Of a stretch of 34,065 nucleotides of DNA, positions 21,336 through 23,874 are shown piece by piece (within the stretch, counting starts at the first letter, position 1; each line of letters begins with the position of its first letter). The DNA is from a bacterium (GTDB lineage Bacteria; Patescibacteriota; Minisyncoccia; UBA6257; GWB1-50-10). The stretch spans positions 1 through 34,065 of the forward strand of contig JAUSKB010000021.1 in assembly GCA_030647415.1 (NCBI GenBank), given 5' to 3'. Under the pieces are notes generated by a model that saw only the letters and a list, made by a program, of their open reading frames with translations, searched no databases and was not told the DNA's origin. A program made the position numbers and the translations under genes.

Positions 21336-21446
21336 CGCGCTCAGTCGCCTAAGGCGACTTCGCTTCTACAACCCCTCGGTTTTAGTGTTTCCGCCACGGG
21401 AAACTCCCGTTTCCCGACCCCTTCCCGTTCGAATCCTCGCGCCCGG

Positions 21447-21489
21447 ATACGAATTGAGCATACCATAGTAAGGTATGCTCAATTCGTAT
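21447..21489 (-). terminator. perfect 18-bp hairpin behind tRNA-Ser(GCT)
   Basis: Arms 21447-21464 and 21472-21489, loop of 7 bases, no mismatch, starting 3 bases after the tRNA end. It lacks a T-run, so it may be a processing or termination structure. Confidence 0.6.
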
Positions 21490-21492
21490 TTG

Positions 21493-23155: not shown

Positions 23156-23261
23156 ATCCCGTTAGAGTTTTACCTATTTTCGAATTTTTATGGGAAGGAA
23201 CATACAGTCGAAACAGCATTTTGGTACGCACCGATGCGTGCGCGTAAAACTCTAACGGGAT
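23156..23261. repeat. MITE-like inverted-repeat element C (106 bp), ends on the rbfA start codon
   Basis: Perfect 18-bp arms at 23156-23173 and 23244-23261 (ATCCCGTTAGAGTTTTAC and complement) enclose 70 bp. The right arm supplies the A and T of the rbfA start codon, so the whole rbfA leader is this element. Confidence 0.8.
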
Positions 23262-23559
23262 GCGCTCATTCCGCCCACAAAAAATCGCGAGCGTCATCGA
23301 GCACGAGCTCGGGAGGCTCCTCGCGCGTGACTTCTACGTGCCGGGCTCGCTTGTCACCGTACTCGGCGTGGACGTCTCGGCGGACCGGTTGCATGCGACC
23401 GTGAAGGTCGGTATCATCCCCTATGAGAAGGGACCGGCGGTGTTTAAGGCGTTGGGGAAGGTCCGCGGCTCGTACGAACACCAGCTACTGCACACCATGA
23501 GTATCCGCCCCTTCCCCCACCTCACGTTCGCGATTGCAGAACCTGAAAAATTGGAATAG
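23260..23559 (+). CDS. rbfA: ribosome-binding factor A
   Basis: 99 residues with the RbfA KH-like fold: FRPQKIASVIEHELGRLLARD at the N terminus (cf. RP-x-R-x-x-E-x-I-x-x-E-L), a VDVSADRLHATVKVGI strand pair, and RPFPHLTFAIAEPEKLE at the C terminus. It matures the 30S subunit. It is shorter at the C terminus than the 120-133 residues of model species. It follows infB as in many bacteria, but only a MITE-like element separates them and the start codon is the last part of that element's arm. No Shine-Dalgarno is present. Confidence 0.9.
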   Translation: MRSFRPQKIASVIEHELGRLLARDFYVPGSLVTVLGVDVSADRLHATVKVGIIPYEKGPAVFKALGKVRGSYEHQLLHTMSIRPFPHLTFAIAEPEKLE

Positions 23560-23562
23560 CTC

Positions 23563-23596
23563 GGCGGCATGGCGAAGTGGTTAACGCGTCGGTCTG
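23563..23596 (+). pseudogene. 5' half of a tRNA-Cys, cut inside the anticodon
   Basis: GGCGGCATGGCGAAGTGG through GGTCTG is a typical tRNA-Cys from base 1 to G34; the sequence then switches to the inverted repeat at 23597. No matching 3' half (CAAA..., GCCGCC with T arm) is found in the next 200 bases. Confidence 0.7.
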
Positions 23597-23709
23597 TCCC
23601 GCACAAAAATCTGGCCACGTGGCGAAGTAGTCCAACGCGACGGTCTGCAAAACCGTTATTCGCGGGTGCGAATCCCGCCGTGGCCTCCTAGCCAGATTTT
23701 TGTGTGGGA
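23597..23709. repeat. 19-bp inverted repeat framing tRNA-Cys
   Basis: Arms 23597-23615 (TCCCGCACAAAAATCTGGC) and 23691-23709 are complementary at every position except one G-T pair. The left arm begins exactly where the tRNA-Cys 5' half breaks off, and its last three bases are the first three of the intact tRNA-Cys. Confidence 0.75.
23613..23686 (+). tRNA. tRNA-Cys(GCA)
   Basis: Acceptor GGCCACG/CGTGGCC, anticodon stem ACGGT/ACCGT around CTGCAAA (anticodon GCA), T arm GCGGG-TGCGAAT-CCCGC, discriminator T as expected for Cys, no encoded CCA. T-loop position 55 is G instead of the near-universal U. Confidence 0.92.
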
Positions 23710-23771
23710 TTGCGATTTGTAGTTTCGCTCCGCTCAAACAAATCGGGAACAAAACCGATATGCGCCGGTTC

Positions 23772-23807
23772 CCTGCCCGCCGTACTTCGTACGCAAAGGC
23801 AGGCGGG
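23772..23807. repeat. GC-rich palindromic repeat
   Basis: CCTGCCCGCC, the palindrome GTACTTCGTAC and GCAGGCGGGG form an imperfect hairpin of the CPR intergenic type between tRNA-Cys and tRNA-Leu. Confidence 0.5.
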
Positions 23808-23874
23808 GACTCCGGCTGCCGCCTCAAAATTCCTCACTTCCGAAAAACGAATGCGCGGTATACAGTGGAAATAC

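Follow-up and report, generated by a model that had tools for sequence, protein, structure and literature searches.

Why should the anticodon loop of one tRNA gene hold a second, complete tRNA gene of the same isotype? This question is raised by a locus in the window, i.e. the whole stretch of 34,065 nucleotides analysed here, which is one contig of a metagenome-type draft genome (964 kb in 38 contigs) of a bacterium of the Patescibacteriota (order UBA6257).

The nested tRNA-Cys locus

The first-pass annotation, prepared from the sequence alone, described a tRNA-Cys 5' half that runs to G34 and then stops, an inverted repeat that begins right after it and, enclosed by the arms of this repeat, a second and different tRNA-Cys. 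Our analysis reproduces this description (Table 1). The arms at 23597-23615 and 23691-23709 match at 18 of 19 positions, the odd one being a G-U pair in RNA, the repeat can be extended to 27 nt at 85%, and the enclosed gene is intact. The 3' half, however, which had been taken as missing, is present as two pieces, the first lying 61 bp past the end of the inner tRNA. The outer gene starts 3 nt past the stop codon of an rbfA-like ORF (ORF end at 23559) and its three pieces, when joined, form a tRNA-Cys(gca) of 74 nt in which the acceptor, anticodon and T stems are all perfect. Two inserts break it, insert A lying exactly between G34 and C35 and insert B in the T loop, and their removal restores the gene exactly, with 0 bases lost and no target duplication. 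A stretch 90% similar to insert B is found in a tRNA-Ala remnant of the same genome.

Table 1. Features of the nested locus, with positions given in the window.
Feature	Position	Strand	Remarks
Outer tRNA-Cys, 5' part (positions 1-34), GGCGGCATGGCGAAGTGGTTAACGCGTCGGTCTG	23563..23596	+	ends after G34
Insert A: element E with tRNA cargo, 153 nt, no ORF	23597..23749	- (in E orientation)	
Left arm of the second hairpin of E, TCCCGCACAAAAATCT	23597..23612	+	complementary to 23694-23709
Cargo: intact tRNA-Cys(GCA)	23613..23688	+	ARAGORN; Rfam 64.5 bits
Right arm of the second hairpin of E, AGATTTTTGTGTGGGA	23694..23709	+	
First hairpin of E (GATTTGT ... ACAAATC), then conserved end CGGGAA	23714..23744	+	same form in aligned foreign copies
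Outer tRNA-Cys, 3' part, C35 to T loop, CAAAACCGATATGCGCCGGTTC	23750..23771	+	
Insert B: 36-nt palindromic repeat in the T loop of the broken outer tRNA-Cys	23772..23807	+	
Outer tRNA-Cys, last part (T stem, acceptor stem TGCCGCC, TC), GACTCCGGCTGCCGCCTC	23808..23825	+	

The gene order infB, tRNA-Cys, tRNA-Leu(UAA) is kept in relatives, with rbfA between infB and tRNA-Cys where this was read, and the outer gene is therefore regarded as the ancestral holder of the site. The inner gene is the sole intact tRNA-Cys found in the genome using RF00005 and ARAGORN (50 RF00005 matches; 48 tRNAs, one of them Cys, when ARAGORN was applied to their surroundings). Inner and outer genes are 78% identical, and on comparing the two cloverleaves by hand, five stem pairs were seen to be changed on both sides (acceptor 4, 5 and 7, anticodon 27-43 and T stem 51-63) and none to be broken, which implies that each was shaped as a working tRNA before the nesting. 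The best match of the outer gene is a gene of the same family (L025, 86%) and that of the inner gene belongs to another family (L031, 86%); as the comparison spans 72 nt, it is no more than suggestive of a cargo from another lineage. The earlier proposal that the resident tRNA-Cys has been replaced by an incoming copy is well supported, considering that the inner gene is the only intact tRNA-Cys, that the outer one occupies the conserved site after rbfA and that the stems differ by compensatory changes.

Element E, its cargo and its targets

Insert A consists of an element, E, and the tRNA that it carries. E is ORF-less and comprises two hairpins with the ends TTCCCG...CGGGA, the tRNA being placed in the loop of the second hairpin, and its general form can be written as TTCCCGATTTGT, hairpin, ACAAATCGCAATCCCG, arm, tRNA, arm, GCGGGA. 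A strict search pattern, CCCGATTTN{10,40}AAATCGCAATCCCG, gave 32 matches in 25 of the 244 genomes of the order, and the reversed pattern, used as control, gave 0; phylum-wide it was found in 3 of 380 genomes, two of which belong to this order. Both ends are kept in 20 aligned copies and the middle of the hairpin is variable. A typical E with tRNA-Ser(gga) cargo and a broken tRNA-Ser was also observed in a more distant member of the phylum outside the order (L313, genome G249), possibly as a result of horizontal spread.

The junctions of the window locus recur elsewhere. The left one, GGTCTG/TCCCGCNCAAAAA, is exact in genome G026, occurs twice in G123 counting one mismatch, and is nearly matched in G180. 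The right one, CGGGAA/CAAAACC, recurs in other genomes, the pattern CAAATCGGGAA/CAAAACC being exact in G123 and having one mismatch in G026; most matches of the junction patterns with one or two mismatches lie away from tRNA-Cys, and many of them resemble chance. G026 and G123 have the same junctions as the window locus and carry other cargo. The nesting in G123 is double, with a 5' remnant followed by the start of E, a second 5' half, the start of E again and an intact tRNA, and in G180 a related insert carries a tRNA that is itself split at 34/35 by a GIY-YIG-encoding element, which brings a further intact tRNA-Cys. Matches to the right-end pattern also revealed E in tRNA-Ser and tRNA-Thr genes.

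On reading 30 E loci, an intact tRNA was found within 150 nt past the element in 23, mostly starting 8 nt after TCCCG. No tRNA lies within this distance in the other 7, several of which sit in tRNA-Ala remnants; empty copies without tRNA cargo also occur. The isotype of the flanks was scored by alignment against 257 tRNAs, since ARAGORN was erratic on the joined flanks of several decayed loci. The outer flanks are of the cargo isotype (Cys, Ser, Thr or Val) in 20 of the 21 distinct loaded loci, which come from related genomes and are partly non-independent samples, and the remaining locus gave a near tie between Lys and Ser. Flanks rejoined by script after removal of E and its cargo read as Val(tac) in L306, Ser(gga) in L302 and Ser(cga) in L300 and L293, like the cargo. 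The breaks are located in the anticodon loop or the T loop, and E is found in both orientations.

Because the junctions recur in other genomes and the tRNA flanks match their own isotype, the nested arrangement is not a product of chance. The first-pass annotation had set a stable arrangement shared by relatives against its idea of replacement. The same arrangement is indeed present in relatives, but the cargoes, isotypes and orientations differ, and this variety argues for repeated insertion in place of one stable ancestral structure. Judged from the sequences, one family of elements has been inserted precisely and repeatedly into tRNA loops with cargo of matching isotype, and the window locus is one instance of a wider system, which we place among the mobile elements known to disrupt one tRNA while providing a second. 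The cargo may be fixed in each lineage of E, each homing to its own isotype; alternatively, E may capture the cognate tRNA as cargo.

As a separate observation on the tRNA-Cys genes, an unusual T loop, TGCRA in place of TTCRA, occurs in five of 37 distinct sequences (window 23613-23688, L245, L026, L031 and L153), two of the five being cargo of E.

Mobilisation of E and rival explanations

E is probably a very small mobile element that enters the loops of tRNA genes and keeps its host alive by supplying a spare tRNA (break and rescue), the involvement of GIY-YIG proteins in trans being the least certain part of this reading. Rescue is proposed because an element that lands in an essential tRNA gene present in one copy would otherwise kill its host, and a matching cargo would make such an insertion survivable. 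A break in an uninvaded tRNA gene, if repaired from an invaded copy, would lead to spread, with the outer tRNA halves acting as homology arms during repair, and small GIY-YIG endonucleases may make this break for E. Two facts count against this reading: E encodes nothing, and in seven of the 30 loci read it is not followed by a tRNA.

That GIY-YIG proteins could be the mobilising enzyme of E is something we infer from sequence. All eight free-standing GIY-YIG ORFs of this genome adjoin a tRNA or tmRNA gene, a ninth match, in a 445-aa frame, being taken as UvrC. No GIY-YIG ORF lies within insert A, which in this respect is unlike a free-standing GIY-YIG homing element; such an ORF is present in L010, L028 and L255, where a GIY-YIG element splits tRNA-Cys after the same G34, and at eight other places of this genome. 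In a sample that includes relatives and is drawn mostly from the top of the match list, 41 of 77 distinct GIY-YIG ORFs (42 of 79 rows) lie at most 300 bp from an intact tRNA or tmRNA; the density of tRNAs would predict about 4%. Same-isotype remnants are found on at least one side of 26 of the 36 distinct same-strand GIY-YIG/tRNA pairs (37 rows). Against such a role, roughly half of the ORFs sampled from relatives have no recognised tRNA next to them. An Rfam search of 20 GIY-YIG loci without a tRNA found nothing. Residues typical of the GIY-YIG active site are kept in the small ORFs, and the solved structures closest to them are those of UPF0213 proteins and of SLX1, which is a structure-specific nuclease. 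Genome G249, which carries a loaded E outside the order and is 87% complete, shows only a UvrC-sized GIY-YIG ORF, and this too speaks against the GIY-YIG step.

Some further arrangements of these ORFs were noted. A small GIY-YIG ORF (L076, G000:C19:27676-27885) follows the tmRNA gene at a distance of 140 bp and shares its strand, and the same pairing is seen in another genome (L107). The GIY-YIG units of L010 and L255 lie between direct repeats of the tRNA-Cys anticodon arm with a hairpin in the loop, and further decayed copies of the repeat follow downstream, as if units had been added successively.

It is a real possibility, appreciably short of an even chance, that E moves as described through another mobiliser, for example host recombination or a Y1/HUH transposase with single-stranded hairpins as its substrate, and that the GIY-YIG elements are a separate kind sharing the same target. 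Single-strand transposition of the IS200/IS605 type fits hairpins without target duplication, and E, with its two hairpins and no target duplication, looks as such transposition would leave it; two Y1 matches are also present in this genome. However, among seven E-bearing genomes tested, a host Y1 transposase is found in three and is absent from four, including G082 with four copies of E and G147 with three, whereas small GIY-YIG ORFs are present in all seven E-bearing genomes of the order tested. As a universal mobiliser, Y1 transposase is unsupported.

The remaining explanations fare much worse. Two tandem tRNA-Cys paralogues might have been rearranged in place, by template switching or by recombination at palindromes, leaving a nested pseudogene with no mobile element involved. 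Two tandem tRNA-Cys genes do occur at the infB-rbfA locus in three relatives, and palindromes are abundant around tRNA genes, but the occurrence of the same element and junctions in other genomes, in other isotypes, in both orientations and also empty makes this origin very unlikely. Equally, there is little to recommend the idea that the nested transcript is processed like an intron-containing precursor to give two working tRNA-Cys. All outer stems are intact, and when the nested RNA is folded as a whole the two sides of the outer acceptor stem pair (z = -6.1); nevertheless the T loop is broken by insert B, the outer halves are eroded in E loci L034 and L270, and the ends UCCCG...GGGAA do not fit group I or group II introns. 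Insert A also differs from a bacterial tRNA group I intron in that a complete tRNA lies inside it, and insert B interrupts the exon a second time. An intron at the anticodon-loop site, to which the earlier annotation had pointed, is not borne out, as no signature was seen by eye and no Rfam intron family reached its gathering score in the window.

The same annotation had suggested that a tRNA-targeting integrase inserted the element at the anticodon loop. Crossover at such loops is well known, and there are phages which disrupt a tRNA of their host while delivering a substitute (PMC10865867), yet this version is hardly credible for an insert of this length with no ORF, no integrase gene and no duplicated att-type core, and for an element that enters T loops too, occurs in both orientations and gave no match in the viral contigs searched with the E pattern. 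An assembly artefact, for which the draft state of the genome could be cited, is rejected as practically negligible because identical junctions are found in independent genomes.

Known systems and other interrupted tRNA genes

With E taken as a mobile element that probably breaks a tRNA gene and supplies a spare, several known systems may be compared with it. Similar to MITE or REP-like repeats, E is short, palindromic and ORF-less, is dispersed in several genomes and has conserved ends; unlike MITEs, it shows no target-site duplication of the DDE-transposase type, and the outer halves join cleanly. We know of no MITE or REP-like repeat that carries a whole tRNA gene or aims at tRNA loops.

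In the tRNA-dependent lysogeny of actinobacteriophages, a phage tyrosine integrase acts on a shared core of 8-10 bp (PMC10865867). E too breaks the host tRNA and supplies one of the same isotype; however, E in the window is a gene-less insert of 153 nt with no integrase or attP core, and the system involves several isotypes and is self-nested. SegB, located beside tRNA genes of T-even phages, is a free-standing homing endonuclease (PMC13096335). In both cases small GIY-YIG nucleases lie beside tRNA genes and may spread by cutting uninvaded copies; here, however, the ORFs lie within split tRNA genes next to a spare tRNA, their activity and spread are putative, and E is ORF-less. The disrupted tRNA-Thr locus of Caldiarchaeum has a 1.8-kb element, believed to code for a recombinase, with a fragment of tRNA-Thr on one side and another tRNA-Thr on the other (PMC3293823). 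Common to both cases is a mobile element with a 5' tRNA fragment before it and a further tRNA of that isotype, but the archaeal case involves archaeal introns and has no whole tRNA nested in the anticodon loop. Home-and-rescue gene drives have been engineered in insects with Cas9 (PMC7968924), and share with the proposed action of E the logic alone of breaking an essential gene while bringing a working copy.

In the open-access literature we found neither nested tRNA genes of this kind nor an association of GIY-YIG with tRNA genes in CPR bacteria, and there is a fair chance that the E system deserves a class of its own. A fuller proposal, which we hold tentatively and place just under an even chance, is that of a new class of selfish DNA, in which a minimal gene-less E breaks hairpin loops of single-copy tRNA genes and persists through a spare tRNA of the same isotype, with the GIY-YIG versions as autonomous partners and serial replacement of tRNA genes in this CPR order as the outcome. 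The data suggest that tiny mobile elements may turn over essential single-copy RNA genes, paying for the damage with a spare copy. If true, this would be a natural counterpart of the engineered home-and-rescue systems, would provide a role for the many small GIY-YIG ORFs of the order, would make the replacement of tRNA genes, horizontal replacement included, directly testable and would explain misleading tRNA fragments in the annotation of CPR genomes.

Other tRNA genes of this genome show similar interruptions and are accompanied by remnants as well. Remnants of the same type occur beside tRNA-Ile, Tyr, Trp, Gly, Ser, Thr, Pro, Ala, Val and others. When each tRNA was compared with its own flanks after masking the intact tRNAs, 11 of 48 gave matches at a score of at least 28, versus 0.3 expected from tRNAs of other isotypes.

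Several repeats around these genes may be recorded. A MITE-like family of about 106-112 bp, with arms like ACCCCGTTAGAGTTTTAC / GTAAAACTCTAACGGGGT around some 70 nt, is present in the window at 23156-23261, 2654-2765 and 339-449, one copy lying between infB and rbfA, and arms resembling those of this family also frame an intact tRNA-Ile (L049) and an intact tRNA-Pro (L058). Downstream of many tRNA genes, a hairpin is succeeded at about 50 bp by the gene's own T arm in inverted form (GGAATCGAACGGGAAAGGGGTCGGG...), and the last 15-22 nt of the gene are often repeated directly some 130-230 bp away; examples are L055, L061 (tRNA-Trp), L059, L070 and window 21380-21490. The palindrome TCCGCCAGAGGCGGATCAGCCTCCGGCTGA and its variants occupy the same point of the D arm in broken copies of different isotypes (tRNA-Ile, Thr, Trp and Val remnants at L049, L061 and L052).
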